64,000 nt of DNA from Oscillospiraceae bacterium. GTDB lineage: Bacteria; Bacillota; Clostridia; Oscillospirales; Ruminococcaceae. Both the position numbers and the translations under genes were made by a program. The first letter of the stretch is position 1; each line of letters starts with the position of its first letter. Location of the stretch: positions 62,001-126,000 of the forward strand of contig JAEEIA010000001.1 in the NCBI GenBank assembly GCA_016281125.1, read 5' to 3'. Below are positions 4,078-50,108 of the stretch, piece by piece. A model generated the notes under the pieces. That model made no database searches. It was not told where the DNA came from and saw only the letters and a program-made list of their open reading frames with translations.

Positions 4078-4168
4078 CTGATATGCAGACGTGCTCTTGA
4101 AACAGCGTACCGGATGCCGTTTTGTCAGATTAGAGCCGGTTTCAGGAATGATTTGTTTAATATTACTA

Positions 4169-4198
4169 TTGACAGGGCGCGGACGGATTCTATATAAT
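4169..4198 (+). promoter_or_regulatory. Promoter of the + strand serpin gene
   Basis: TTGACA at 4169-4174 and TATAAT at 4193-4198 with an 18-base spacer. The long leader with two palindromes suggests control after initiation or by an operator. Confidence 0.75.
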
Positions 4199-4369
4199 AA
4201 AAGGGGGATTTTCGGCCGAAATCATTTTATACGGCAGGGTTTTGATCCGCGCGGATCACCGCACGGAGCTTCCGCTGTATATCGGCTATTTGATGAAGCC
4301 GGAATGAACCCGAACACATGCGGGGAATTTTTATGTACGGAACGATTGAAAAACAGGAGGACAGATCAT

Positions 4370-5938
4370 ATGAAACACAATCAGAGATTCGGCCTGTTTA
4401 TGGCCGTCTGTATGCTGGCGGGAAGCTGTATCGCACCGTTTCCGGCCAATGCAGAGGATACAGCATCCGTGCGTCCGGGCGATGCGAACACTGACGGCTT
4501 TGTGGACGTCGCAGATGCCGTGCTCGGCGCAAGATTTTCCGCAGAGGATAAGGATGCGAAACTGACAGATCAGGGCAGAAAGAACGGTGACGTCAACGGC
4601 GACGGCGAATTTGACGGCGAGGATGTTGCGCAGATCCTTGAGTATATTGCGCACAAGCGGACGTCGCTCGGAACAGCACAGCCGCCTGCGGAGAAGCTGA
4701 CCAAAACGGTCGATATGATGGCGGGCATCGAACCTTCCGGTGCATCCGGCAAAGAGGTCGATGATGCATTTGTGACTGCGCAGTTCGATCTGACCGCGAA
4801 GCTCATGAAGCAGATCAGTCAGGATTCAGAAAAGGATCAGAATATCCTGATTTCGCCGCTGTCGCTCTCATTGGCGCTGGGCATGACCGCAAACGGCGCC
4901 AAAGGTGAAACGCGTGCAGAGATGCAGAAGCTGCTCGGCGGTGAGATTGACATTGAAACCTTGAACGCGTATTATTACGACTATGTTTCCAATCTTCCGT
5001 CCGACGACAGGGAAAGACTGGAAATCGCAAATTCGATCTGGATCAAGGACGATGAATCCAGAATTGTTGTTCCTGAGGATTTTTTGCAGACCAACAAGGA
5101 TTTCTTTGATGCCGGTGTATTCCGTGCGCCGTTTGACGACGGTACAATCAAGGACATCAATGACTGGACCAGCAGCCGTACCCGCGGAATGGTTCCGGAG
5201 GTCATCCGGGAATTTGACGATCTGGAGATCATGGATCTGATCAATACGCTGTATTTTGACGCCGCATGGAAGAAGCAGTATGAAGGCTACCAGGTGACGC
5301 CCGGAACCTTCTATCTGAATGAGCAGCTGGATCTGAATGACTATGAATCTGTCAGAAATGCGAAGCCGGAGGAAGTCTGCGATGTCGATTATATGTCCAT
5401 GCAGGAGGACTTCTACGTTCAGGATGAGAAAGCAGTCGGGTTCGTAAAGCCTTACAGCAGTGACAATTACAGCTTTGTCGGACTGCTGCCGAATGACGGC
5501 GTGACGGTGCAGGATTATATTGACAGCATGGACGGCGCCTCTCTGAAAAAGCTGATGGACAGCAAAAAGGAGAACCCGCATCTTGTGTACACCTGTCTGC
5601 CGAAGTTCAAGAGCTCCTATGAGGTCACGCTGAACGACACGCTGAAAGCACTCGGCATGAAGCAGGCCTTTGATCCGTGTTCCGCTGATTTCACCGGTCT
5701 GAACGCACTCGGAGAAACCTGGATCGGTTCCGTTCTGCAAAAAACGGTGATCGAAGTGACCGAGGTCGGAACCCGTGCGTCGGCTGTCACAGCTGTCAGC
5801 ATGATGGGCGGCGGCGGATATCCGGACGGTGCCGTGTTTGTGTATCTGACAAAGCCTTTCATTTACATGATTGTGGATAACCGCACCAATCTGCCGGTCT
5901 TTATCGGAACCGTGATGCATCCGAAATATGAATCATAA
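4370..5938 (+). CDS. Dockerin-serpin A (secreted, cellulosome-type serine protease inhibitor)
   Basis: A 522-residue secreted protein. The ATG at 4370 is chosen because AGGAGG lies just upstream and the protein then opens with a signal peptide ending ANA|ED near residue 29. A type I-like dockerin occupies about 36-98 with two calcium-binding F-hand repeats starting at D38 and D74. The serpin domain fills about 125-522. Its hinge reads EVGTRASAVTA, the small-residue pattern needed for loop insertion in inhibitory serpins. Counting from the hinge puts the predicted scissile region in a Met-Met-Gly-rich stretch. The end (PFIYMIVDNRTNLPVFIGTV) is typical of serpins. It converges on the five-gene serpin operon. 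Target protease unknown. Confidence 0.9.
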   Translation: MKHNQRFGLFMAVCMLAGSCIAPFPANAEDTASVRPGDANTDGFVDVADAVLGARFSAEDKDAKLTDQGRKNGDVNGDGEFDGEDVAQILEYIAHKRTSLGTAQPPAEKLTKTVDMMAGIEPSGASGKEVDDAFVTAQFDLTAKLMKQISQDSEKDQNILISPLSLSLALGMTANGAKGETRAEMQKLLGGEIDIETLNAYYYDYVSNLPSDDRERLEIANSIWIKDDESRIVVPEDFLQTNKDFFDAGVFRAPFDDGTIKDINDWTSSRTRGMVPEVIREFDDLEIMDLINTLYFDAAWKKQYEGYQVTPGTFYLNEQLDLNDYESVRNAKPEEVCDVDYMSMQEDFYVQDEKAVGFVKPYSSDNYSFVGLLPNDGVTVQDYIDSMDGASLKKLMDSKKENPHLVYTCLPKFKSSYEVTLNDTLKALGMKQAFDPCSADFTGLNALGETWIGSVLQKTVIEVTEVGTRASAVTAVSMMGGGGYPDGAVFVYLTKPFIYMIVDNRTNLPVFIGTVMHPKYES

Positions 5939-5996: not shown

Positions 5997-8903
5997 TCAG
6001 CTGTTCGGAACATAAATGATTTCGTCCAGCAGGATCCGTACATCATAGGAGCCGTTGCTGTGCTTGGTCATCTGCATGTGATTTGCCTTCAGCTCGTAAC
6101 GTCCGGACAGCGAACTGATATGTACGACCGGCCGCAGATTGTTTTCAGCATCACAGCAGTTTGCATAATTCGCAAATGTTTTCGGGTTCTCGTCCAGTGT
6201 GAGAACCGGCAGACCGAGAACCGGATCCTCCGGCTGTTCAATGTAATCCGTATAGATGAGCAGCGAATAATTTTTGTTCAGTGTGACCGGTTCCCCGGTG
6301 TACCGATCCACAACCGTGAACCGCACCTCGCCCTCTTTCAGCGCTTTCATCGGCTTTAACCGGACTGCAACATCAGCGGAGCCGTTGTCGTGCATGGTTA
6401 CCGCCATGGAGGAGAGGTCGTAGCCGGCAGGAACATTCACCCGATTAATCCCCATGGAAAAGCTGTCTGCGTCGAAATGATGTGCGAAGCTATCCACAGT
6501 CATGGGGTTCGCATTCATCCGGATCGGCGGACCGCTGGATACTTTGCCGTTCGGGGTATTGTAAGAGATGCTTGTGCTGATGACGAAAGCGTTATCATCG
6601 GTGATTGCAATCTGTTCACCGGTTTCCGTATCAACAGCAGTGAAGCGAACCTGATCGTTTTTCAGCTCTGACATTGCTTTCAGCCTGATCGTCACTTCAT
6701 ATTTGTTGTTTTCGAGCTTTGTCACGGTGACGGCGTTCTCCGGCAGCGTATAGCCTGCTGGAACGGTACCCGGCTCCACTTCTGCTGCGAACTTCGCAAT
6801 GTCGCTGTCCTTTTCAAACGCCTTGACGGTAAAGGGGTTTGCGGTCATTGCAGAGGCGAAATGGGTGGTGGAGGAGGTTTCACTGACCTCGTCCGAATAT
6901 TTCGGAGAGTAAGTTCTGACATCCACAACAAGCGGATCATTTGCGTTCAGCGGGATCAGCGCACCGGTATCCGCATCCACAGCGGTATAACGGATCTCGC
7001 CGTCGTTCAGCGCCTGTGCTTCCTTTTTCAGTCTGACCGTGATTTCTCCGGATCCGTTTTCGTTCTTTTTCCATGAGATACTGTCGTCCGGCAGTGTGTA
7101 TCCGTCCGGAAGATGGTACGGACTGACCGACATGGAAAAGACGTCAGCATTGAAATGCCGTGCAAGATCATCCTTGACGATATAAGGGTTTTCGCTGATG
7201 ATGTATACCGGCCCGGTCATCATATCGCCCTGCTCGGTGTGATAAGCGATTGTCGTATTGATCGAGATTCTGTGGTCATCGTCCAGGGGAATCAGTTCGC
7301 CGGTATCCGCATCTACGACCGTGAAGCGGATTTCATCCTTTTGCAGTTCCTGCTGCTGAGGAGGCAGCGGCGCATCATCCGTCTGCGGATCCTTGACGCT
7401 TCCGATAAAGACCGGCAGCTTGGTGCGCTCGTCAATGATCATGAAGATGAACGGACGGTCGAAGTTCAGATCGCGTGCAATGTGGGCCTTCTGCGTCATC
7501 TCACCGATTGTTGCGGCGGCAGCCTTGGTGCCGGTTTCGTTCACGTCGATGAACGTGTTGTGCAGCACTCTGCCGAGATACACATCGCCGGGATGCCATT
7601 CGCCGGATTCGCTCTGATACATTTTACTGAAGTCTGCTTTGCCGCCGTCGAATGCCTTTTGCACGCCGAGCTTTTGCAGGGTACTGCCGAGCAGCTCGTC
7701 ACCGGTATCGTAGTCGAATGTGAACTTCGGCATCCGGACACTGACCTCATCCTTGCTGCGGCTGTCCATGAGATTCCCGAGCGAATCCGCATCCATCATC
7801 CCGATGTAGTCGGAGAGCGTCACAGACTTGGATTCCCGCGGCAGAATGCCGACAAAGCTGTATGTGCCGCCCGCATACGGCTTGACAAAGCCCTCTGCGT
7901 ATTCGTCGGAGATGTAGTATTCCTCCGAGCCGGTCATCATGGTGACCTTCTGCTTGGTGTCGGTGCCGAAATCGGTTACATAGGAGCCCTTCCATGCGGT
8001 TTCCCATTCCGCATCAAATGCGAGCGCATTGATCAGATAGGTCACAGCGTTCGGATCCATGCTTTTCAGCATATTCTGAATCATGTCATCGGTCTTGTCG
8101 CTGATCCAGCTGTTGATCTCACCCATTGTGCTGTCGGTGAACGGCGCCTTGAACACATCCATATTGGGGTAGTAATCCTTGACGGTCTGCAAATACTCGT
8201 CACGGATTTGCAGTGCTTCGCTGTTCCAGATGGAATTTGCGATGTTCAGCTTGGCTTTGTCACTGCTCGGGAGATTGGCAAGGTAATTGTGGTAGTATTC
8301 GTTCAGATCCTCCATGGAGATGCTGCCGCCGAGCAGCTTTTCCAGTTCGGCTCTGGTTTCGCCGTCCGCGCCGTTGCCGGCCATCGCAAGCACCGATGCA
8401 ATCGACAGCGGCGAGATCAGGATATTGTCATGCTCCGTATCACGGAACGAGATTTCCTTCATCAGCTTGGCCGTCAGATCGTACTGGCTCTTGACGAATG
8501 CGTCGTCAACGGCCTTGTCCGTGACATCCTGTGCGGTGAGCTTTTCGGTCAGGGAGTGTGCCTTGTAGCCCTGTGTGCTTTCCTCCTTGCCGAGCACATC
8601 GCGCTTTTTGGCGATGAATTCCAGAATCTGGCTGACGTCCGAGCCGTCCACATTGCCGTCCAGATTGACGTCTGCATTCAGGCGTCCGTTGTCGGTCATC
8701 TTCGCGGATGCATCCGCAGCGGCGTATCTGGCAATCAGCACGGCGTCTGCGACGTCCACAAAGCCGTCCATGGTCGCGTCACCGTAGCGCGTCACCTTGA
8801 GCTGTGCCGGGGTGTCTGCTGCGCTGACCGCCGCCGGTGTGATGCAGCTGCCCGCCAGCATACAGACCGCGAGCATTGCTGCGAATGATTTGTGCAGTTT
8901 CAT
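5997..8903 (-). CDS. Dockerin-serpin B with four C-terminal repeat domains
   Basis: A 968-residue protein, nearly twice the length of its five neighbours. The ATG at 8903 has GGAGG upstream. The order is signal peptide (about 1-29, cut after VSA), N-terminal dockerin (about 37-100), serpin domain (about 115-505), then four divergent repeats starting near 521, 633, 748 and 854. Each repeat opens with a pattern like IRFTVVDADTGE and spans 105-115 residues, resembling prealbumin-like or Cna-B-like folds. The serpin hinge is NETGTKAAAAT, fully canonical for an inhibitory serpin. The predicted P2-P1 residues are Q-K, so a trypsin-like target is plausible. Last gene of the - strand serpin operon. 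The repeats may bind a surface or space domains; their function is unknown. Confidence 0.88.
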   Translation of the reverse strand: MKLHKSFAAMLAVCMLAGSCITPAAVSAADTPAQLKVTRYGDATMDGFVDVADAVLIARYAAADASAKMTDNGRLNADVNLDGNVDGSDVSQILEFIAKKRDVLGKEESTQGYKAHSLTEKLTAQDVTDKAVDDAFVKSQYDLTAKLMKEISFRDTEHDNILISPLSIASVLAMAGNGADGETRAELEKLLGGSISMEDLNEYYHNYLANLPSSDKAKLNIANSIWNSEALQIRDEYLQTVKDYYPNMDVFKAPFTDSTMGEINSWISDKTDDMIQNMLKSMDPNAVTYLINALAFDAEWETAWKGSYVTDFGTDTKQKVTMMTGSEEYYISDEYAEGFVKPYAGGTYSFVGILPRESKSVTLSDYIGMMDADSLGNLMDSRSKDEVSVRMPKFTFDYDTGDELLGSTLQKLGVQKAFDGGKADFSKMYQSESGEWHPGDVYLGRVLHNTFIDVNETGTKAAAATIGEMTQKAHIARDLNFDRPFIFMIIDERTKLPVFIGSVKDPQTDDAPLPPQQQELQKDEIRFTVVDADTGELIPLDDDHRISINTTIAYHTEQGDMMTGPVYIISENPYIVKDDLARHFNADVFSMSVSPYHLPDGYTLPDDSISWKKNENGSGEITVRLKKEAQALNDGEIRYTAVDADTGALIPLNANDPLVVDVRTYSPKYSDEVSETSSTTHFASAMTANPFTVKAFEKDSDIAKFAAEVEPGTVPAGYTLPENAVTVTKLENNKYEVTIRLKAMSELKNDQVRFTAVDTETGEQIAITDDNAFVISTSISYNTPNGKVSSGPPIRMNANPMTVDSFAHHFDADSFSMGINRVNVPAGYDLSSMAVTMHDNGSADVAVRLKPMKALKEGEVRFTVVDRYTGEPVTLNKNYSLLIYTDYIEQPEDPVLGLPVLTLDENPKTFANYANCCDAENNLRPVVHISSLSGRYELKANHMQMTKHSNGSYDVRILLDEIIYVPNS

Positions 8904-8941
8904 AGTGTTCCTCCGTTTCGTTTCATAGTGGTTTTTGATTC

Positions 8942-8972
8942 TGCGTCTGCCCGTGCGTGCCGGACAGACGCA
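8942..8972 (-). other. Intergenic stem-loop between serpin C and serpin B
   Basis: A 12-base stem (8942-8953 with 8961-8972, one U-G wobble in the - strand RNA) lies just after the serpin C stop codon. There is no U tract, so it looks like an RNA processing or 3'-end protection element, not a terminator. Confidence 0.5.
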
Positions 8973-8980
8973 TTTGCTGA

Positions 8981-10501
8981 TCATTCCGTTGTTTTGCCGG
9001 GATTTCTGACGCTGCCGATAAAGACCGGAAGCTGGGTACGTTCATCAATGATCATGAACAGGAACGGGCGTGTGAAGCTGAGGTTCGGCGCGCCTCCCTG
9101 CCGCGTCATTTCCACGACCGTTGCGGCCGCTGCCTGCGTGCCCGTTTCATTGACGTCGATGAACGTATTGTGCAGCACTCTGCCGATATAGACGCCCTCA
9201 CTGTCCTTTTCATAGAGCTTGCTGAAATCGGCTTCACCGGAAAATGCTTTCTTCATGCCGAGCTTCTGCAATGCATTGCCGAGCAGCGTATCGCCTGTAT
9301 CGTATGCAAACCCGAACTTCGGCAGCGCGACCTGCACGGCTTCCTCCGTGCGGCTGCCGAGCAGCTTTTGCAGCGAATCTGCATCCATCATGCCGACATA
9401 ATCGGAGAGCGTCACTGACAGCGATTCGCGCGGCAGAATGCCGACAAAGCTGTACGTGCTGCCAGCATACGGCTTGATGAATCCCTCTGCGTACTTGTCG
9501 GAGATATAGTATTTCTCAGTGCCTTTCATCAGTGTGACATCCAGCTTGGTGCCGTCATAATCCGTGAATACGCCGTCAGCGGTTTCCTTCCATGAGGTTT
9601 CCCACTCCGCATCAAATGCGAGTGCATTGACCAGATAGGTCACGGCGTTCGGATCCATGTATTTCAGCATATCCTCGATCATGTGATCGGTCTTGTCGCT
9701 GATCCAGCTGTTGATCGCGCTTCTTGTGCTGTCCGTGAACGGCGCTTTGAAAACGTCCATATCGCCGTAGTAATTCTTGACGGTCTGCAAATAATCGTCA
9801 CGGATTTGCAGTTCCTCGCTGTTCCAGATCGAATTGGCAAGGTGCAGCTTTGCATTGTCGCTGCTTGGCAGATTTGCAAGGTAATTGAGGTAGTATGCGT
9901 TCAGCTCCTCCATGGAGAGCGTGCCGCCGAGCAGCTGTTCCATTTCGGCTCTGGTTTCGCCGTCTGCGCCGTTGGCCGTCATTGCCAGTGCGGAAGCAAT
10001 CGACAGCGGCGAGAGCAGGATATTGTCATGCTCGGTATCGCTGAACGAGATCTCCTTCATCAGCTTTGCGGTCAGATCATACTGGCTTTTGAAAAATGCT
10101 TCGTCAACGGCCTTGTCCTTGACGGTCTGTGCGGTAATGTCTTTCGTCAGGCTGAAAGACTGATAACCCGGATCACTGGTTTTCGGGTATCCGAGATAGT
10201 CGCGCTTTTTAGCGATATACTCAAGGATCTGCGTCACGTCCGTGCCGTCCACATTGCCGTCCAGATTGACGTCTGCGCAAGATCTGCCCATGTCGGTGAC
10301 GGTTGCGTTCGGATCCGCAGCGACATACCTTGCCGTGAGCACGGCGTCCGCGACGTCCACGGAATTGTCCCCGTTTACGTCACCGTATTCCCGGATGCCT
10401 GCCGGGACGGCATCCTTTGCGGAAACGGCCGCGGGTGTGATGCAGCTGCCCGCAAGCAGGCTGCCTGCAAGCACCGCTGCTGTCTGTTTCAGAAATTTCA
10501 T
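8981..10501 (-). CDS. Dockerin-serpin C
   Basis: A 506-residue secreted serpin. AAGGAGG precedes the ATG at 10501. Signal peptide with a VSA|KD cut near residue 28, dockerin at about 35-100 (second repeat DVNLDGNVDGTDV; in the first repeat the usual Gly at position 6 is Asn), serpin domain to the end. The hinge NETGTQAAAAT is canonical. The predicted reactive site is around T-R-Q-G, with Arg at P2 or, if the register shifts by one, P1. The loop length matches alpha-1-antitrypsin. Its closest relative in the cluster is serpin B, from the shared DVNLDGNVDG repeat and the shared SISFSDTEHDN-like region. Fourth gene of the serpin operon. Confidence 0.9.
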   Translation of the reverse strand: MKFLKQTAAVLAGSLLAGSCITPAAVSAKDAVPAGIREYGDVNGDNSVDVADAVLTARYVAADPNATVTDMGRSCADVNLDGNVDGTDVTQILEYIAKKRDYLGYPKTSDPGYQSFSLTKDITAQTVKDKAVDEAFFKSQYDLTAKLMKEISFSDTEHDNILLSPLSIASALAMTANGADGETRAEMEQLLGGTLSMEELNAYYLNYLANLPSSDNAKLHLANSIWNSEELQIRDDYLQTVKNYYGDMDVFKAPFTDSTRSAINSWISDKTDHMIEDMLKYMDPNAVTYLVNALAFDAEWETSWKETADGVFTDYDGTKLDVTLMKGTEKYYISDKYAEGFIKPYAGSTYSFVGILPRESLSVTLSDYVGMMDADSLQKLLGSRTEEAVQVALPKFGFAYDTGDTLLGNALQKLGMKKAFSGEADFSKLYEKDSEGVYIGRVLHNTFIDVNETGTQAAAATVVEMTRQGGAPNLSFTRPFLFMIIDERTQLPVFIGSVRNPGKTTE

Positions 10502-10539
10502 TGTCGTACCTCCTTTTCCGGTTTTATGCTTTACGGCTC

Positions 10540-10570
10540 TGCGCCTGTTCAGATTGCCGGAACAGGCGCA
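10540..10570 (-). other. Intergenic stem-loop between serpin D and serpin C
   Basis: A perfect 11-base inverted repeat, TGCGCCTGTTC at 10540-10550 and GAACAGGCGCA at 10560-10570, sits just after the serpin D stop codon. No U tract follows in the - strand direction. Confidence 0.55.
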
Positions 10571-10579
10571 TTTGTTATC

Positions 10580-12115
10580 TTATGAAGCCGGATTTTCTGC
10601 TTCTGTCGGGTGCATGACAGTACCGATGAATACCGGAAGCTGTGTTTCGTTGTCGATGATCATGTAAATGAACGGGCGGTCGAGATAGACTGTCTTGTAA
10701 TCCGTCGGGCCGACTGCGTTGTCTGCGATTGCGACCATGGTGACGGCACCTGCTTTCGTGCCCAGCTCATCGACCTGAATGAAGGTTTTGTGCAGCACCA
10801 GATCAACTTTACATTCCGGATTGATGCTGTTCAGCTTTCCGAAGCGGGCGATCGGGTATATGAAGGCGTCTTTCATGCCGAGCGCGTACAGAACATCGTT
10901 CAGCGTGATGGTGTAATCATATTTGAATTTCGGGAGCATGGTGTGGACCTCGGTCTTCTTGCTGCTGCTCAGTAGATTTTGCAGGGATTCGCCGGTCATC
11001 ATACCGATATAATCGGAAACGGTCACGGACTTTTCCTGCTTCGGGAGAACCGCGGCAAAGCTGTACTTTCCGCCCTTATACTGTTTCAGGAAGCCTGTCG
11101 CGTACTCGTCCTCCAGATAGGTGCTTTCTTCACCGTACATCATCGTCGCGGTCATGTCGCCGTCGTAGGCGTGGAATACGCCGTCATGAACATCGTTTGC
11201 CATGTAGGGAGATGTCCATTCCGCTTCAAACGCAAGCGCATTGATCAGCAGCATGATCCAGTTCTGGTCGATTTCGTCGATCAGCGTCGGAATCATATGC
11301 TTTGTATTGGTATCGACCCAGTTGTTGACGTCTTCGACCGTGCTCTCATCGAACGGCGCCTTGAATGCGTCTGCATGATAGTAATCCTTTGCCGTTTGCA
11401 GGAATGCCTCCGGCACCTTGATGCGTGTTTCGTCGTTGCGCACCCACAGGGAATTTGCAATGCTCAGTTCGTCGGAGGCGGTCAGCATGGCAGTGTAGTC
11501 TGCATAATACTGATTCAGCGCCTCTATATCCAGTGTATCACCGAGCAGCTTTTCCATTTCCGTTTTGGTATTGTCCTCTGCACCGTTGGCTGTCATGGCG
11601 AGCGCCTGCGAAACGGACAGCGGGGAGATCAGCATATTATCCGTGGTCTGCGGATCCTGTGCCGCGCCCCTGAACAGATCGGCGGTCAGCTTCATCTGGC
11701 TTGCGATGAAGGTTTCGTCCGCTTTCTTTTTGGATGCGGTGCCCGGTTCAATCGCGTCCGTGAGGCAGGTTGCCTGATACTTATGTTCAGCGGGCTGCTG
11801 ATCCGGCTTGCCGAGGGCATCGCGTTCAATCTGTCTTGCGATAAACCGGATAATCTTCAGGACGTCCGCTTCATCCAGATTGCCGTCTGCATTGACGTCG
11901 CCCTGCAATTTGCCCTGATCGGTCAGCTTCAGATCATAATCCATGACGCAGTATCTTGCCACAGCGACGGCGTCTGCAACGTCTACGGACTGATCCATAT
12001 TGACATCGCCGTAAACCTGCGCCGGTTCCTGTGTATCCGCGTATGCGGGCGTGATGCAGCTGCCCGCGAGCATACAGGCGGCGAGTGCTGCGGAGATCGT
12101 TTTTCTGAATTTCAT
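10580..12115 (-). CDS. Dockerin-serpin D
   Basis: A 511-residue secreted serpin. AGGAGG upstream fixes the ATG at 12115; a more upstream in-frame Met lacks a ribosome-binding site. Signal peptide (about 1-27), dockerin (about 34-100; first repeat DVNMDQSVDVADAV without the usual Gly6), serpin domain to the end. The hinge is DELGTKAGAVT, still made of small residues. The predicted scissile bond lies near D-N-A-V. The loop is about four residues longer than in alpha-1-antitrypsin. The dockerin segment is almost identical at the DNA level to that of serpin E, which points to recent duplication or gene conversion. Confidence 0.9.
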   Translation of the reverse strand: MKFRKTISAALAACMLAGSCITPAYADTQEPAQVYGDVNMDQSVDVADAVAVARYCVMDYDLKLTDQGKLQGDVNADGNLDEADVLKIIRFIARQIERDALGKPDQQPAEHKYQATCLTDAIEPGTASKKKADETFIASQMKLTADLFRGAAQDPQTTDNMLISPLSVSQALAMTANGAEDNTKTEMEKLLGDTLDIEALNQYYADYTAMLTASDELSIANSLWVRNDETRIKVPEAFLQTAKDYYHADAFKAPFDESTVEDVNNWVDTNTKHMIPTLIDEIDQNWIMLLINALAFEAEWTSPYMANDVHDGVFHAYDGDMTATMMYGEESTYLEDEYATGFLKQYKGGKYSFAAVLPKQEKSVTVSDYIGMMTGESLQNLLSSSKKTEVHTMLPKFKYDYTITLNDVLYALGMKDAFIYPIARFGKLNSINPECKVDLVLHKTFIQVDELGTKAGAVTMVAIADNAVGPTDYKTVYLDRPFIYMIIDNETQLPVFIGTVMHPTEAENPAS

Positions 12116-12160
12116 GGTAAATCCTCCTGTTCTGTTACTGTTCGTGCTGATTTGCAATAC

Positions 12161-12195
12161 CCTTAGCCTGCTCAGTGCTTCTGAACAGGCTAAGG
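12161..12195 (-). other. Intergenic stem-loop between serpin E and serpin D
   Basis: A 15-base stem, 12161-12175 pairing with 12181-12195 (one wobble) around a 5-base loop, lies 10 bases after the serpin E stop codon and has no U tract. Confidence 0.55.
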
Positions 12196-12205
12196 AAGAT
12201 GTTTG

Positions 12206-13738
12206 TCATTCGACGACTTCTGTCGGGTGCAGGACATAGCCCATGAACACCGGCAGATTTGTCTTGTTGTCGAGAATCAGATAAATGAACGGACGGTTCA
12301 GGGACACCGTTCTGGAATCCTCCACGCAGGTTGCTTCCACGCCAATGAAGGTCACGGCGCCAGCCTTGGTGCCTTTTTCATCGACCTGGATAAAGGTCTT
12401 GTGGATCACGGCGTCAATATTGCTGCCGCCGAGTGCATTCAGACCGGAGAAGTCCGCGCTGTCAGAGAATGCAGTCTTCATGCCCAGTGCCCGGAGCATG
12501 TCATTCATCTTGAGCGAATAACCGTACTTGAATTTCGGTATGCCTGCATTTACCTTGATGTCCGTTTTGCTGCTGAGCAGCTTTTGCAGGGATTCACTGG
12601 TCATCATGCCGATATAATCGGACACAGTAACGGATTTTTCTTCCTTCGGCAGGATCGCCGCAAAGCTGTAATCGCCGCCTGCATATTCCTTGATGAAGCC
12701 GGTCGCGTACTCGTCTTCCAGATAGGCGCGCTCCTTGCTGTGCATCATTTCAACGGTCATGTCACGGTCATATGCGTGGAATGTTGCGTCGGATACTTCA
12801 AATTGGCTGTACGCCGATGCCCATTCTGCGTCAAAGGCCAGCGCATTGATCAGCATCATGATCCATCCGGGCGGGATTTCCTTCACGATCTCCGGGATCA
12901 TTTCAAAGGTGTTTTCGTTGACCCAGCTGTTGACGTCCTCCACGGTGCTGTCATCGAACGGTGCCTTGTATGCATCCGCACCGTAATAGTCATTCGTTGT
13001 CTGCAAGAATGCTTCCGGCACCTGAATTCTGCCCTCATCATTGCGGATCCAGAGTGAATTTGCAAGATGCAGCTTGGCTTTGTCAGTGCTTGCAAGATGG
13101 CTCGTGTAGTCGTAGTAATACTGATTCAGCGCGTCAATGTCCAGCGTATCGCCGAGCAGCTTTTCCATTTCCTCGCGCGTCTGCCCCTTTGCGCCGTTCG
13201 TCGCCATGGCGATTGCCTGCGAAACCGACAGCGGGGAAACCAGCAGATCCTTGCCTGCGGATTCCGGATCCTGCGCAGCGCCCTTGAACAGATCGACTGC
13301 GAGCTTCATCTGGCTTGCGAGGAATACCTCGTCAACCTGCTTGCTGTCAGCAGTTTTGGCTGTAATGCCGTCCATGAGATTGACCGCATTGTACTTGTGT
13401 TCGACCTTCGGATCCGGCTGGCCGAGCGCACCGGGCTCAATCTGTCTGGCAATATAGCGGAGAATCTTTTGCAGATCCTTCTCGTCCAGATTGCCGTCCG
13501 CATTGACGTCACCCTGCAATTTGCCCTGATCGGTCAGCTTCAGATCATAATCCATGACGCAGTATCTTGCTACGGCGACGGCATCTGCAACGTCCACGGC
13601 GGTGTCCATGTTGAGGTCGCCGAAGCTCATCTGAACAGGCGTCGGCGTGACATAATCCTCCGCCGAAACATGTGCGATGCAGCTGCCCGCAGCGATGCAG
13701 ACAGCGAGAATTGCTGAAAATACCTTCTGAAATTTCAT
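12206..13738 (-). CDS. Dockerin-serpin E
   Basis: A 510-residue secreted serpin. The ATG at 13738 has GAGGG upstream. Signal peptide ending VSA|ED near 27, dockerin about 37-105 (second repeat DVNADGNLDEKDL), serpin domain to the end. The hinge is DEKGTKAGAVT. The predicted reactive region is E-A-T-C-V, placing a cysteine at or next to P1', which is unusual for a secreted inhibitor. It belongs to the D/E/F subgroup, which shares ARYCVMDYD-like spacers and ARQ-type helix ends. Second gene of the operon; the gap to serpin F is only 43 bases with no hairpin. Confidence 0.9.
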   Translation of the reverse strand: MKFQKVFSAILAVCIAAGSCIAHVSAEDYVTPTPVQMSFGDLNMDTAVDVADAVAVARYCVMDYDLKLTDQGKLQGDVNADGNLDEKDLQKILRYIARQIEPGALGQPDPKVEHKYNAVNLMDGITAKTADSKQVDEVFLASQMKLAVDLFKGAAQDPESAGKDLLVSPLSVSQAIAMATNGAKGQTREEMEKLLGDTLDIDALNQYYYDYTSHLASTDKAKLHLANSLWIRNDEGRIQVPEAFLQTTNDYYGADAYKAPFDDSTVEDVNSWVNENTFEMIPEIVKEIPPGWIMMLINALAFDAEWASAYSQFEVSDATFHAYDRDMTVEMMHSKERAYLEDEYATGFIKEYAGGDYSFAAILPKEEKSVTVSDYIGMMTSESLQKLLSSKTDIKVNAGIPKFKYGYSLKMNDMLRALGMKTAFSDSADFSGLNALGGSNIDAVIHKTFIQVDEKGTKAGAVTFIGVEATCVEDSRTVSLNRPFIYLILDNKTNLPVFMGYVLHPTEVVE

Positions 13739-13781
13739 GTGATTACCCTCTCTCATTATGTTGTTATGTTGTGATAAAGAA

Positions 13782-15314
13782 TTATTCCGCTTCGACTTCT
13801 GTCGGGTGCAGGACATAACCGATGAAGATCGGCAGGTTGGTGCTGTTGTCCACGATCATGTAGATGAACGGACGGTCAAGATAAACGCGCTTCGGGGGTT
13901 CCGGTTCTATGGCGCAGCCGGCAGCAAAGATCGCCGTGACAGCTGCTGCCTTGGTGCCGCGGTCATCGACCTGGATAAAGGTCTTGTGCAGCACGGTGTC
14001 AATCCAGGTATTGCCGAGGCTGTTCAAACCGGTGAAGTCAGCAGAATCCGGAGAAAACGCCGCCTTCATGCCGAGGGCTTTCAGCATTTCGTTCATCGTG
14101 AGCGAATACTCATACTTGAATTTCGGGAGCATGGTTTCGACTTTGGTATTCTGCTTGCTGTTCAGCAGCTTTTTCAGGGAATCCGCGGTCATGCTGTCGA
14201 TATAATCGGAAACGGTGACGGATTCGTCCGGCAGAATCGCCGCAAAGCTGTACTCGCCGCCCTTGTAGGATTTCATGAAGCCGGTTGCGGTCAAATCCTC
14301 AAGATAGGTGTATTCTTCACCGTACATCATTTCAGCGGTCAGATCTCTGTCATAGGCGTGGAATTTGCCGTCGGAAACATTATATTCGTTGTACGGGTCT
14401 GCCCATTCTGCTTCAAATGCGAGTGCGTTGATCAGGATCATGATCCAGTTCGGGTTGATCTGATCCAGGAGCGACGGGATCATTTCGTGCGTGTGATAGC
14501 TCACCCAGTCGTTGACGTCTTTGACCGTGGAATCGTCGAACGGTGCCTTGAACGCGTCTGCGCCGTAGTAGTCAGCGGTCGTTTGCAGGAACTGTTCCGG
14601 AACCTGGATTACGGCTTCATTATCGCGGATCCAGAGGGAGTTTGCAAGGTGAACATCTGCTCCGGATGCCTGAGTCAGTTTTTTGGTGTAGCGGTAATAA
14701 TACTGATTCAGCGCGTCAATGTCCAGCGTATCACCGAGCAGCTTTTCCATTTCCTCTTTGGTCGTGCCGTTTGCACCGTTCGCTGCCATGGCGAGCGCCT
14801 GTGAAACGGACAGCGGCGAAACGAGCAGATCCTTGCCCTCGGACTGTTCATCCTTGGCAGCGCCCTTGAACAGATCGACGGTCAGCTTCAGCTGGCTGTC
14901 AATGAATGCTTCGTCAGCCTCCTTGCCGCTGACGATTTCCGCCGTGACGTTCTCCATGAGGTTCATTGCCTGATAATTCGGCTCCGAGGTCAGCTCCGGT
15001 ACGCCGAGCTCCTCCACCTGCCTTGCGATGTACAGCAGAATCTGTCTGAGGTCGGCATCGTCCAGATTTCCGTCCCGGTTGACGTCGCCCTGTATTTTGC
15101 CCTGATCCGTCAGCCGGAGATCCCAGTCCATGTTGTAATAGCGTGCAACTGCAACGGCGTCTGCGACATCGACATTCGAGTCGAGATTGACGTCACCGTA
15201 GCGGATTGGCACCTCCGGGTAATCGTCATCTGCCGATACAGCGGCCGGTGCGATGCAGCTTCCTGCAAGCATACACGCTGCAAGCATTGCGGAAAGAAGT
15301 CTTGCATGTTTCAT
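13782..15314 (-). CDS. Dockerin-serpin F (first gene of the serpin operon)
   Basis: A 510-residue secreted serpin. GGAGG precedes the ATG at 15314. Signal peptide cut after VSA (about residue 29), dockerin about 38-103 with repeats DVNLDSNVDVAD and DVNRDGNLDDAD, serpin domain to the end. The hinge is DDRGTKAAAVT. The predicted reactive region A-A-G-C-A-I has a cysteine at or next to P1, followed by a Pro/Glu-rich segment, and the loop is about four residues longer than in alpha-1-antitrypsin. As promoter-proximal gene it is probably the most transcribed of the five. Confidence 0.9.
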   Translation of the reverse strand: MKHARLLSAMLAACMLAGSCIAPAAVSADDDYPEVPIRYGDVNLDSNVDVADAVAVARYYNMDWDLRLTDQGKIQGDVNRDGNLDDADLRQILLYIARQVEELGVPELTSEPNYQAMNLMENVTAEIVSGKEADEAFIDSQLKLTVDLFKGAAKDEQSEGKDLLVSPLSVSQALAMAANGANGTTKEEMEKLLGDTLDIDALNQYYYRYTKKLTQASGADVHLANSLWIRDNEAVIQVPEQFLQTTADYYGADAFKAPFDDSTVKDVNDWVSYHTHEMIPSLLDQINPNWIMILINALAFEAEWADPYNEYNVSDGKFHAYDRDLTAEMMYGEEYTYLEDLTATGFMKSYKGGEYSFAAILPDESVTVSDYIDSMTADSLKKLLNSKQNTKVETMLPKFKYEYSLTMNEMLKALGMKAAFSPDSADFTGLNSLGNTWIDTVLHKTFIQVDDRGTKAAAVTAIFAAGCAIEPEPPKRVYLDRPFIYMIVDNSTNLPIFIGYVLHPTEVEAE

Positions 15315-15378
15315 AATGATACCTCCGTTTCGATTCATAAACATGTCAGAATAGTTCGGGTCGCCCACCCTTATACAA

Positions 15379-15425
15379 ATCTTATCACCAATAGCAAAAT
15401 CTTTCAATTCGCATACTATACGAAT
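15379..15425 (-). promoter_or_regulatory. Serpin operon promoter with overlapping near-palindrome
   Basis: Reading the - strand, TTGAAA (15402-15407) and TAAGAT (15379-15384) are spaced by 17 bases. A 19-base near-perfect palindrome at 15407-15425 (ATTCG arms, one mismatch) abuts and overlaps the -35 edge, the expected place for an operator. An AT-rich stretch lies beyond it. Confidence 0.65.
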
Positions 15426-15504
15426 AAAATTTTTTTATTTGGTGTAACCGGGAATCTGCACAAAAGATAGTCTGGTTCCTTGTGCATATTAAACAGAAAT
15501 TTTG

Positions 15505-15544
15505 GCAAAAAAACCGCGCCGTCCCGGGCAGCGGACAGCGCGGT
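15505..15544 (-). terminator. Terminator after the acyltransferase gene
   Basis: In the - strand direction a GC-rich hairpin with AACCGCGC pairing to GCGCGGTT is followed by seven T residues, directly after the acyltransferase stop codon. It separates the recN-region operon from the serpin operon promoter. Confidence 0.88.
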
Positions 15545-16714
15545 TTATGTGTCATTTATGGCTTGCAGCCTTGCTTTCTGCGCCTTCCGGCGTCTGAGCA
15601 GGAAGATTGTGAAATCATAGCCCCACTGAATCAGAACGCCGCAGAGCAGCGACCAGAAAACTGTCTTGGCAATCGTACCCGGAACATGCCGGAACCGCTC
15701 CTCGACGGTTGCATAATCATTGTTCAGACGTTTGTAGTAAACCGAGTCGAACAGGTAAGAAATGAGGTATGCAGCGAAGGTTCCGTTGCTCAGATGCTTT
15801 AAGACAGTGCGTGCGATTTTGTTCTTGATGCGGATGTCAAACAGCATCAGAAACAGCATTGCGGTCATCACTGCAACAGGCCATGCGGCATAGTCATCGT
15901 TGTGCCAGGTGCGCCAGATGCAGTCGCATTCCGTGTTCTTCAGGGATTGATAAAAAGTAACAACAGAAACCCAGACGAGCGCAGCGCCGAATATCGCAAG
16001 ATACTTCAATTTACGGCGCGGTTTGCGCTTCGGCGGAAAATCACGCAGATACGCACCGATCAGATAATACGCGAACGGGTAGCCGCGCGTGAAGAAGCTG
16101 GGGAAAATCTTGATCTGCGTGTTGAAATTTGTGCCGATATAGAACGACTGCGCAAACAGGAACAGGAAGCAGAACGTCAGCAGCATGAGCCGCTTGTTCC
16201 GCTTGCTGCGCATTCCGTGATATGCCTGATTGATGAACGGAATCAGCAGGAAGATGCAGAAATAATATTCCACATACCAGCTGTACTGCGCGTCTGTGTA
16301 CATGAACAGTCCGCGGACAGCCTGCCAGATGCTGTAATGAAACTTGTGAAAGCAGATATTGAAAATCAGGTTGACGATGCTGATGAACACGTAGATCACC
16401 AGCACGCGCAGAATGCCCTTGTAATAGCCCGCGCTCAGGCGCTTCCGGCTCATCAGATAGCCGGTGACGGTCATGAACAGCGGGACGCAGCAGAATGCAA
16501 TCCACCGGATGTAAATCTGGAACGCGCCGAAATCGGCCGAGATCGGCGTGCTGTAAAAGCCGGTATGCAGAAAGGAATGCACCGTGACAACAAGAATCAG
16601 TGCAACGATTTTGATGATGTCGATGCCGGTACTGCGTTCTTTTGTCTGCGGCGGAATCACAGAACGGCGCGGCCGTCTGCGGTAAGCGTATCTTATATCA
16701 GCTTCCGGCTGCAT
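15545..16714 (-). CDS. Membrane acyltransferase (acyltransferase-3/OafA-like family)
   Basis: A 389-residue integral membrane protein with about ten hydrophobic segments. The first helix region reads GIDIIKIVALILVVTVHSF, with the histidine typical of the family active site. Such enzymes O-acylate surface polysaccharides or peptidoglycan. The start at 16714 is supported by AAGGAGG upstream. It overlaps the recN 3' end by 17 bases, so translation is probably coupled. The acyl donor and acceptor cannot be deduced. Confidence 0.85.
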   Translation of the reverse strand: MQPEADIRYAYRRRPRRSVIPPQTKERSTGIDIIKIVALILVVTVHSFLHTGFYSTPISADFGAFQIYIRWIAFCCVPLFMTVTGYLMSRKRLSAGYYKGILRVLVIYVFISIVNLIFNICFHKFHYSIWQAVRGLFMYTDAQYSWYVEYYFCIFLLIPFINQAYHGMRSKRNKRLMLLTFCFLFLFAQSFYIGTNFNTQIKIFPSFFTRGYPFAYYLIGAYLRDFPPKRKPRRKLKYLAIFGAALVWVSVVTFYQSLKNTECDCIWRTWHNDDYAAWPVAVMTAMLFLMLFDIRIKNKIARTVLKHLSNGTFAAYLISYLFDSVYYKRLNNDYATVEERFRHVPGTIAKTVFWSLLCGVLIQWGYDFTIFLLRRRKAQKARLQAINDT

Positions 16715-48025: not shown

Positions 48026-48057
48026 AAAGAGCATGACCGCACGGCCATGCTCTTTTT
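48026..48057 (+). terminator. Bidirectional terminator between amidohydrolase and acylphosphatase
   Basis: A perfect-ended stem, AAAGAGCATG with CATGCTCTTT, followed by TTTTT on the + strand; A-rich on the other side. The genes are convergent. Confidence 0.85.
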
Positions 48058-48329
48058 CAGTATCTGATTTCAAAGGTATGATCGTTGTGAACGGGAATGG
48101 TTTCGCTGCGGATATCATCAATCTGCGCCCAGGTGTTCCGCTCCAGCGCAAGCATCATGTCGTCAAGATCCTTTGCGCACCCTTCGGCCTCCATTTCGAC
48201 GGAGCCGTCCCAGAGATTGCGCACCCAACCGGATATGCCGTAATATCCGGCAGCCTGTTTTGCGCGGTACCGGAATCCGACGCCCTGCACGTCGCCGGAA
48301 AAGATAATATGTCTGCGGATTTTCTCCAT
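48057..48329 (-). CDS. acyP: Acylphosphatase
   Basis: A 90-residue enzyme hydrolysing acyl phosphates. The catalytic arginine is in GDVQGVGFRYRAKQ (about 12-25) and the catalytic asparagine in SGWVRNLWDGSVE. The ATG at 48329 gives the normal family length. Divergent from the CARF gene. Confidence 0.93.
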   Translation of the reverse strand: MEKIRRHIIFSGDVQGVGFRYRAKQAAGYYGISGWVRNLWDGSVEMEAEGCAKDLDDMMLALERNTWAQIDDIRSETIPVHNDHTFEIRY

Positions 48330-48418: not shown

Positions 48419-48447
48419 TTGACAATCTGTGCAAAATCAATTATAAT
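48419..48447 (+). promoter_or_regulatory. Promoter of the CARF gene
   Basis: TTGACA at 48419-48424 and TATAAT at 48442-48447 with a 17-base spacer, a perfect consensus, suggesting steady expression. Confidence 0.85.
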
Positions 48448-48486: not shown

Positions 48487-50067
48487 ATGAAAATTCTGTT
48501 TTCCCCTGTCGGCGTCAACGATCCGTACAAAGAAGAACGCGATCCCGTGACCAACGCTGTCATCGGCGTTCAGGAGGGACCTCTTCTTCAGATCTGCCGG
48601 CAGGAAAAGCCGGACAAGGTCTATCTGTATTTTTCCGGTGATGCGCCGATGCTGGAGCAGCAGGACCGCCGCTTCCACAATGCGCTGGAGCAGCTCAGTC
48701 CTGCGCCGGAGGTTCAGGTCATTCTTCGCCTGGATGTGAAGGACGATGCTTCCGCAGAGTTCCTGCGCGAGGATTTCCGCGGCATTCTGACGGATATCCG
48801 CGATCAGGCGCCGCAGGGCTCGGAGCTGATCGTCAATGTGTTCTCCGGCACGGACGCAATGCGCGAGGCGTTTACCGCGCTGGCCGGTGAATGCCCGCAG
48901 GAGCCTGATCCGGAGCCTGTTGTCACGGAGGACGATGATGACGAGCTGCCGCCGGACTTCTTTGACGGCTTCGGCGAGGAGGAAGGCTCTGCACCGATTG
49001 TGCATCTGAAGGATGACGAAGAAAATGATGCAGATGCAGAGGATTCCGATGCAGCTGATGAAGCAGCGGATTCCGGCGAAGAGATTGCAGAAGCTCCTGC
49101 TGCGGACGATGCTGATGATACAGCTGACGAAGCAGCGGAGGATGCAGAGGCACCCGCTGACAATGCAGCAGAAGATACAGCTGAAGTACCGGAAACTGCG
49201 GCGGATGAACCGGATGCTGCTGCGCCGGAGGCCGCTGAGGAAACACCCGCTGAGCCGGAGGTTCCGGCGGTTGATCCTGCAGCGCTGATTGCAGACGAGC
49301 AGAAGAAGCTGCTCACGGTTCTGATTGATGCGCATGAATATGCTGCTGCACAGGCAATTTGCCTGCGCATGGAGCAGCCGCCCGCACCGGCGTTTACCGC
49401 ACTGCTGGATGCTGCCGTTCTGCGCAGCAGCGGCAGATGGCCTGCCGCCGTCCAGCGCTTCCGTGATCTGGGACAGGCAGAGCTGGCAGCGGGAATCACG
49501 CCTGCTTCGGATTATTTCCTGCGCCTGAGCATGCTGGCAGAGCGCGATGACTGCACGGCGTTCTTCCGCGCGGTGCCTGCGCTGCTGGTCGAGGTGTTCC
49601 TTGCGGTGATCCGCAAGCAGTTCGGAAACGACCTGACGCAGTACATGATCTACAATTCCCGGAAATGGGATGAGAACAAGCTGGTGATGGCACAGCTGAC
49701 CGGTAAATTCAACGAAACCTTTACCTATCACACCAAGCCGCGCCCGATGAAGGTCGGCGGATTTGTCACGACTGCGCATCTTTCCAATTATATGGAAAAT
49801 GTTTCTGATAGAAAGAAGCATTCCGCGATGATTCTGGAAACGATGAAGCTGCGGCAGTATGCGGAGGACAAGGTGAAGAATGTCACGACCTACGCGCTCT
49901 CCTCTGTCAGCGGTGCGGACATGAAGAAGTTCAATCTGTTCCCGCCCGCGGAGGTCATCACGATGATCCGGGACTACATCCGTAATTACACGGATCTGGC
50001 ACTGGACGATACGGTGCTGATGTCCTATCAGAAGATGAACGAGGCACTGAAAGCGGCACTCGAATAA
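48487..50067 (+). CDS. Csm6-like CARF protein with acidic linker and degenerate HEPN-like domain
   Basis: 526 residues in three parts. Residues 1-134 resemble the CARF domain of Csm6-type effectors: the start MKILFSPVG, GPLLQICRQEKPDKVYLYFS and the ligand-loop VNVFSGTDAM (116-125) match the pattern that binds cyclic oligoadenylate. Residues about 138-270 are a Glu/Asp/Ala/Pro-rich, extremely acidic linker. Residues about 271-526 are helical and look like the Csm6 C-terminal HEPN region, but where Csm6 has an R-x4-H nuclease motif this protein has KNVTTY (464-469). So sensing may be kept and RNase activity lost. GAGGTG precedes the ATG. Homology is judged by eye. Confidence 0.65.
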   Translation: MKILFSPVGVNDPYKEERDPVTNAVIGVQEGPLLQICRQEKPDKVYLYFSGDAPMLEQQDRRFHNALEQLSPAPEVQVILRLDVKDDASAEFLREDFRGILTDIRDQAPQGSELIVNVFSGTDAMREAFTALAGECPQEPDPEPVVTEDDDDELPPDFFDGFGEEEGSAPIVHLKDDEENDADAEDSDAADEAADSGEEIAEAPAADDADDTADEAAEDAEAPADNAAEDTAEVPETAADEPDAAAPEAAEETPAEPEVPAVDPAALIADEQKKLLTVLIDAHEYAAAQAICLRMEQPPAPAFTALLDAAVLRSSGRWPAAVQRFRDLGQAELAAGITPASDYFLRLSMLAERDDCTAFFRAVPALLVEVFLAVIRKQFGNDLTQYMIYNSRKWDENKLVMAQLTGKFNETFTYHTKPRPMKVGGFVTTAHLSNYMENVSDRKKHSAMILETMKLRQYAEDKVKNVTTYALSSVSGADMKKFNLFPPAEVITMIRDYIRNYTDLALDDTVLMSYQKMNEALKAALE

Positions 50068-50072
50068 CCGTG

Positions 50073-50108
50073 AAGCAGGCATTTCCCGGAAGGGAGGTGC
50101 CTGCTTTT
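50073..50108 (+). terminator. Terminator after the CARF gene
   Basis: AAGCAGGCA (50073-50081) pairs with TGCCTGCTT (50098-50106), followed by a short T run. Confidence 0.7.

Follow-up and report, generated by a model that had tools for sequence, protein, structure and literature searches.

What does a Csm6-like protein do when its gene lies outside any csm locus and its nuclease motif appears to be lost? The question is raised by a gene in a 64,000-nucleotide stretch of DNA from an Oscillospiraceae bacterium (contig JAEEIA010000001.1), the whole of which is here called the window. A preliminary description of the window had taken the gene product for a stand-alone Csm6-like CARF protein without its HEPN nuclease motif, driven by a perfect constitutive promoter, and had suggested a repurposed signal sensor, a buffer of the second messenger or a non-CRISPR regulator. 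From the comparisons below, the protein is likely a domesticated Csm6 that has lost nuclease activity and, less firmly, oligoadenylate sensing as well.

In this group of Ruminococcus-like bacteria, a homologue is present in 13 of the 30 genus genomes searched (the same 13 by profile search), leaving 17 without one. The 13 carriers encode 14 proteins, as genome G299 has two, a copy with a dead site on contig C186 and an intact Csm6 (L024) on C133. There is one dead copy per carrier, giving 13 in total, among which L002 (Oscillospiraceae RGIG5975) and L003 (Ruminococcus sp. Phil11) are each counted once. Outside the genus, relatives were sought in 297 and 396 genomes of the family and 394 of the order, and the seven that extend to the HEPN site (L006-L010, L058 and L059) have it intact. 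No relative turned up in viral contigs, plasmids or phages at the sensitivities used. One Csm6-like frame (L062, G767:C102) encodes 318 aa and stops before the HEPN motif; it is a truncated copy or an assembly error, and was dropped from the count of intact sites.

The frame in the window has its annotated start and stop confirmed, and its parts are listed in Table 1. The proposed kinship with Csm6-like CARF/HEPN proteins is borne out. The protein scores 160.4 bits with the NCBIfam Csm6 model TIGR02672 (cut-off 150) and 41.5 with the Pfam Csm6 HEPN family (PF09659, cut-off 23.4), while the Pfam Csm6 CARF family alone falls under its cut-off (PF22208, 22.3 against 27.5, covering profile positions 5-56 of 106). 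Nine of the 13 dead members were scanned, of which three pass TIGR02672 (the window protein, L002 and L005; intact L024 scores 374) and two reach the PF22208 cut-off (L015 and L005). PF09659 matches all 11 rows of the dead-clade C-terminal alignment. In comparisons with known Csm6 structures, a clade profile of 11 C-terminal halves matches Csm6_III-A (PDB 4rgp, E 6.6e-6), and a profile of five CARF halves matches EiCsm6 (6tug, E 1.3e-13). In the dead clade the linker between the halves measures 58-141 residues, of which 0-2 are Lys/Arg; in six intact relatives it measures 47-61 residues, of which 3-7 are Lys/Arg. AlphaFold2 models are poor (mean pLDDT 39.6 for the full protein and 41.4 for the C-terminal half, each run with two orthologues), so that surface, dimer and groove find no support from structure. 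A match of residues 390-453 to the RNA chaperone ProQ (E 0.021 and 0.0077) was taken as chance, because it appears in two of 11 members, no Pfam ProQ match is obtained at E up to 10, and the only PDB match of the clade profile at E up to 1 is 4rgp.

Table 1. Features discussed in the text; positions refer to the window unless a contig is named.
Feature	Position	Strand	Basis or remarks
Csm6-derived protein, 526 aa, dead HEPN site	48487..50067	+	ORF, domain scans, homologues
CARF-derived half, residues 1-133	48487..48885	+	SPVGVNDP and SGT retained; equivalent of EiCsm6 Arg173 gone; last CARF strand not clear
Acidic low-complexity linker, residues 134-262	48886..49272	+	52 Asp/Glu, 1 Lys/Arg; fast evolving
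C-terminal helical and pseudo-HEPN half, residues 263-526	49273..50064	+	Most conserved part clade-wide
Dead catalytic site KNVTTY (464-469), replacing RNxxAH	49876..49893	+	Alignments
Sigma-70-type promoter, perfect	48419..48447	+	TTGACA 48419-48424, 17-base spacer, TATAAT 48442-48447
Terminator-like hairpin	50075..50108	+	Fold (13-pair stem, GGAA loop, then TTTT); separate terminator scan listed none
Acylphosphatase-like gene, divergent from the Csm6-derived gene	48057-48329	-	
Type III-A locus csm1-csm6, intact Csm6	L043 (G299:C133) 8722-16241		Cas1 on same contig

The loss of the nuclease motif is confirmed. Three alignments (MAFFT with relatives, the clade profile against 4rgp, and profile-profile against intact Csm6) agree in placing KNVTTY at the catalytic site, and a scan of the whole 526 aa finds no R-x4-6-H. 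The ALSSV that follows (470-474) is likewise as described, but not one of the six intact relatives in the alignment has the EIVSV said to be common at this place in Csm6. The same replacement holds for the orthologues, in which position 464 is basic (Arg in eight, Lys in five) and the catalytic His at 469 has given way to an aromatic residue (Tyr in 11, Phe in two) in all 13 dead members. L002 and L003 share the KNVTTY of the window protein, and the other sites read RNVTTY (L015), RNWANY (L005), RTLASF (L016), RTLASY (L017), KTLAFY (L018, L019), RGFAYY (L020-L022) and RALASF (L023). RNxxAH is present in all eight intact relatives that reach the site (L006-L010, L058, L059 and L024, the last, in G299, with RNLAAH). 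L005 and L016 have an R-x4-H elsewhere, at a position not common to the others. In TtCsm6, changing any one of the motif residues Arg, Asn and His (the last as H422A) left no RNase activity (PMC10897365), a result in favour of inactivity in the dead clade, although His to Tyr itself is not among the mutants in the portion of that paper available. Residues invariant in the 13 dead members include W394, D395, K398, G406, K407, F408, H415, K417, P418, P420, T428 and A430. Nine of these 12 (all except K398, T428 and A430) also occur in intact L024, and few in other intact relatives; they are therefore marks of this Csm6 lineage and not of the His loss. The pI of the C-terminal half ranges from 5.7 to 9.1 across the dead members and is not always basic.

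Where this lineage came from is indicated by G299, in which L024 belongs to a csm locus where Csm1, Csm2, Csm3, Csm4 and Csm5 all score above cut-off and Cas6 is matched below it. This is the only one of the 30 genus genomes with Csm1 over cut-off; the only other Csm1 match, in G303 (E 3.1e-4), is under cut-off, and G303 has no Csm6-derived gene. The other 12 carriers have neither Csm1 nor a second Csm6 copy. In the genome of the window (draft, 95.53% complete, 3.88% contamination), a search for type III loci gave no match to Csm1, Cmr2 or Cas1; Cas1 is matched in 13 of the 30 genus genomes, the window's not among them. A crude 20-mer scan of the window found no repeat array, as had been noted, and the position of the gene outside a csm locus is likewise supported. 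When 21 C-terminal halves are placed in a tree, one branch with support 97/97 sets all 13 dead rows apart, and L024, the nearest intact row, joins them at 99/99. Support for the dead group drops to 81/89 once the motif columns are removed together with L009 and L010 (L058 and L059 not being included), and is 89/89 in a CARF-only tree. The trees were midpoint-rooted, and their outer order is unsure because of the long intact branches. The simplest history that would fit these sequences is a single His loss after separation from a type III-A csm6 of the genus.

The perfect promoter of the preliminary description is indeed there, and is a feature of the clade. TTGACA-17-TATAAT occurs with 12 of 12 letters in 12 of the 13 dead genes, 36-80 bases upstream of the start, and in each of these 12 none of 200 shuffles is as good; the promoter of L019 has 11 of 12 letters (2/200 shuffles as good). 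The best match of intact L024 has 8 of 12 letters, which is no fair control since L024 comes last in a csm operon, where no promoter is expected. In 247,974 bases searched on both strands (the window and 13 fetched stretches) there are 27 perfect sites with spacers of 16-18, of which 12 are the dead genes' own and the remainder amount to about one per 16 kb. A consensus alone is no proof of expression; constitutive production of the window protein is probable.

Elsewhere in the window, TTGACA-N16-18-TATAAT is matched perfectly at two positions only: at 2311, preceding a response-regulator-like ORF, and at 4169, inside the long 5' part of a serpin-like ORF as listed. At 4091-5938 (+) and 5997-8984 (-) lie adjoining genes whose translations, judged by eye, show a dockerin-like repeat followed by a serpin-like domain, and which are candidate cellulosome-type serpins. 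Next to the Csm6-derived gene are amidohydrolase-like and divergent acylphosphatase-like genes upstream and an ABC-transporter-like ATPase downstream, each under the curated cut-offs of the matched families. The acylphosphatase-like family (fam4) recurs in five of the 14 loci and the ABC-ATPase family (fam3) in seven, the latter probably as paralogues. A common operon or neighbour was sought and rejected: other families occur in four loci or fewer and none in all 14, some of the contigs being short.

That the gene has been repurposed in some way, as first suggested, is supported by selection. Omega was estimated for 11 pairs of dead members and is below 1 throughout, at 0.055-0.229 for the C-terminal half, 0.081-0.551 for the CARF half and 0.209-0.645 for the linker (several dS exceed 1, making those values rough), and the 13 dead frames contain no internal stop codon; retention under selection makes repurposing probable. 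The distribution of constraint differs from that in intact proteins. Mean pairwise identity among the 13 dead members is 52.3% in the C-terminal half versus 37.8% in the CARF half, and among six intact relatives 22.9% versus 44.0%. Among the 78 dead pairs the C-terminal half is the more similar in 76, and among the 15 intact pairs in none, counts that are not independent owing to shared history; with six dead representatives it is the better conserved in 15 of 15 pairs. At CARF identities of 30-40%, C-terminal means are 48.5% (42 dead pairs) versus 20.8% (six intact pairs). The two exceptions are the window protein paired with L002 and L003 (CARF 84 and 83%, C-terminal 76 and 78%), and the shift of constraint is therefore a property of the clade and not of the window's closest relatives. 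In these same pairs omega is 0.138 and 0.107 for the CARF half versus 0.166 and 0.161 for the C-terminal half, and within the window subgroup it ranges over 0.08-0.14 and 0.15-0.17, respectively.

Two alternatives turn on what the CARF half can still bind. One is that it binds a cyclic oligoadenylate, the protein acting as a sponge, a ring nuclease or a sensor that buffers or breaks down the messenger or passes a signal on through its dead HEPN half. Retention of SPVGxNDP and SGT in the window protein, L002 and L003, where the CARF half is constrained, speaks for this, as does the finding that EiCsm6 with a dead HEPN still partly degraded cA6 through its CARF domain (available text of PMC7101355). 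The same text reports that Asn10, Thr114 and Gln116 of EiCsm6 matter for cA6-dependent activity, that Arg173 reads the adenine and that Thr11 serves ring cleavage. Aligned to 6tug, the intact profile places Arg173 (with a chain offset of 3 counted by hand) at a conserved Arg that is present in all six intact relatives and, in an alignment that is unsure near the linker, in none of the 13 dead members at the aligned place. The 50 residues before Tyr285 contain no Arg in eight dead members, and in the other five Arg occurs only closer, inside the first helix. Of the five EiCsm6 residues, the window protein retains only the equivalent of Thr114, though positions 10, 11 and 116 prove little because they vary in intact relatives too; at the place of Thr11 all 13 dead members have Asn, Ser, Gln or a gap, and only four of six intact ones have Thr. 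The full SSGTP string is found in none of the 13, nor is the Q-V pair of the last CARF strand at its poorly aligned place; a similar last-strand stretch is kept in L005 (LDLKC), L016 (LDLLP) and L023 (LNLLP). In searches for a source of the messenger, 12 of 13 carriers showed no Csm1, and Cmr2 and SMODS were matched in none of the 30 draft genus genomes; mCpol was likewise matched in 0 of 30, a weak negative given that its controls reached cut-off in 0 of 14. The window's own draft genome has no Csm1, Cmr2, SMODS or mCpol match, with the same weak mCpol control. Panoptes-like and CBASS signalling were considered and set aside on the mCpol and SMODS results. Together, the absence of the base-reading Arg, the lower conservation of the CARF half clade-wide and the lack of matches, among the synthetases sought in the 30 genus genomes, outside G299 and G303 weaken the sensor and buffer roles first suggested, while constraint on the CARF half in the window subgroup speaks the other way. 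We regard such a role as unlikely, and in these hosts the protein probably does not serve as an effector of cyclic oligoadenylates.

A related and somewhat doubtful explanation is that the CARF half was retuned to another nucleotide or small ligand, whose binding state the dead HEPN half relays to a partner. The CARF half is the better conserved one in the window subgroup (omega as above), the positions of G31, R38 and N120 of L024 are retained there, and, being at least as constrained as the C-terminal half, it may bind some ligand in that subgroup. In L016-L019 and L023, however, the first CARF loop is shortened or lost and CARF omega rises to 0.25-0.55, so that this role is unlikely to be common to the whole clade. 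That the dead protein instead damps an active Csm6 in mixed dimers is suggested by the two copies of G299, but with the other 12 carriers having neither Csm1 nor a second copy, this seems very improbable. We give hardly any credence to the idea that a type III-A locus was lost and the gene is its decaying relic, or to an assembly error: the motif and CARF loop losses and the patchy distribution would suit it, and against it stand omega below 1 in every pair, 13 open frames, an aromatic residue at the site in every member and a perfect promoter in 12 of 13.

The explanation we tentatively prefer, at a little short of even confidence, is that Csm6 was co-opted for a role other than that of a nuclease, the protein probably forming a dimer that binds RNA or protein. 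A Csm6 would have left the type III-A locus in an ancestor within the genus and then been domesticated. The sequences show that the HEPN catalytic His has been lost clade-wide and that the gene sits away from csm1, with its own consensus promoter and under purifying selection. They also show that, across the clade, constraint has shifted to the HEPN-derived half at the expense of the CARF half, the closest pairs of the window being exceptions. The protein would be made constitutively and might retain dimerisation through its HEPN half, as in Csm6. The old active site (Arg/Lys with Tyr/Phe, 13/13), together with nearby invariant residues such as W394, D395, G406-K407-F408, H415, K417 and P418, may then hold an RNA or protein partner uncut, and the acidic linker may tune this holding. 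A basic and an aromatic residue are fixed in the former active site, which points to the pseudo-HEPN dimer as a holder of RNA, as is proposed for HEPN domains without the motif in the available text of PMC3710099, or else of protein. Such a role is made less sure by the spread in pI, the poor models and the conserved CARF half of the window subgroup. The explanation as a whole also has against it that most of the invariant residues recur in intact L024, that 17 of 30 genomes lack the gene and that its loci have no neighbour in common. A bolder version, which we consider possible but hold only loosely, is that a CRISPR signalling nuclease became a constitutive, lineage-specific, non-immune protein in which the dead HEPN pocket is a new RNA-holding site, with the sensing half being shed by some branches and retuned in that of the window.

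If this is true, CRISPR machinery would have been domesticated for an always-on cellular role. The orthologues of this one genus range from an intact Csm6 that is still part of a csm locus to stand-alone descendants with a dead site, which remain under selection, so that the fate of CRISPR effectors after leaving immunity can be tested on real proteins. The automatic label is probably misleading for this protein: TIGR02672, an equivalog model, calls it Csm6 despite the lost nuclease motif and base-reading Arg, and tallies of type III immunity could go astray in this way.

A literature search found no published description of this dead-Csm6 clade, while both CARF genes outside CRISPR loci and HEPN domains lacking the motif are already known, as far as the available text of PMC4012209 and PMC3710099 goes. 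Stand-alone ring nucleases of type III systems (available text of PMC7101355) are likewise of CARF type without a working RNase effector; in the dead clade, by contrast, ring nuclease and ligand residues are altered and the messenger synthetases sought were not found. Each CARF family has genes unlinked to CRISPR-Cas, and these likewise lie outside CRISPR loci, but no clade of Csm6 proteins with a dead site in HEPN is described in the available part of the paper that reports this (PMC4012209). With type III-A Csm6 (TIGR02672; EiCsm6 6tug, Csm6' 8pcw, Csm6_III-A 4rgp), the dead clade shares the CARF-helical-HEPN order and homology in both halves; it differs in lacking the catalytic His and the base-reading CARF Arg, in its long acidic linker and own consensus promoter, in standing outside a csm locus, and in its clade-wide inversion of conservation. 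Likened by description only, non-catalytic HEPN proteins such as MtlR are also HEPN-derived, without R-x4-6-H and kept by selection, with RNA binding proposed for them in the available text of PMC3710099, whereas the dead clade descends from a CRISPR ancillary effector and retains a CARF-derived half.
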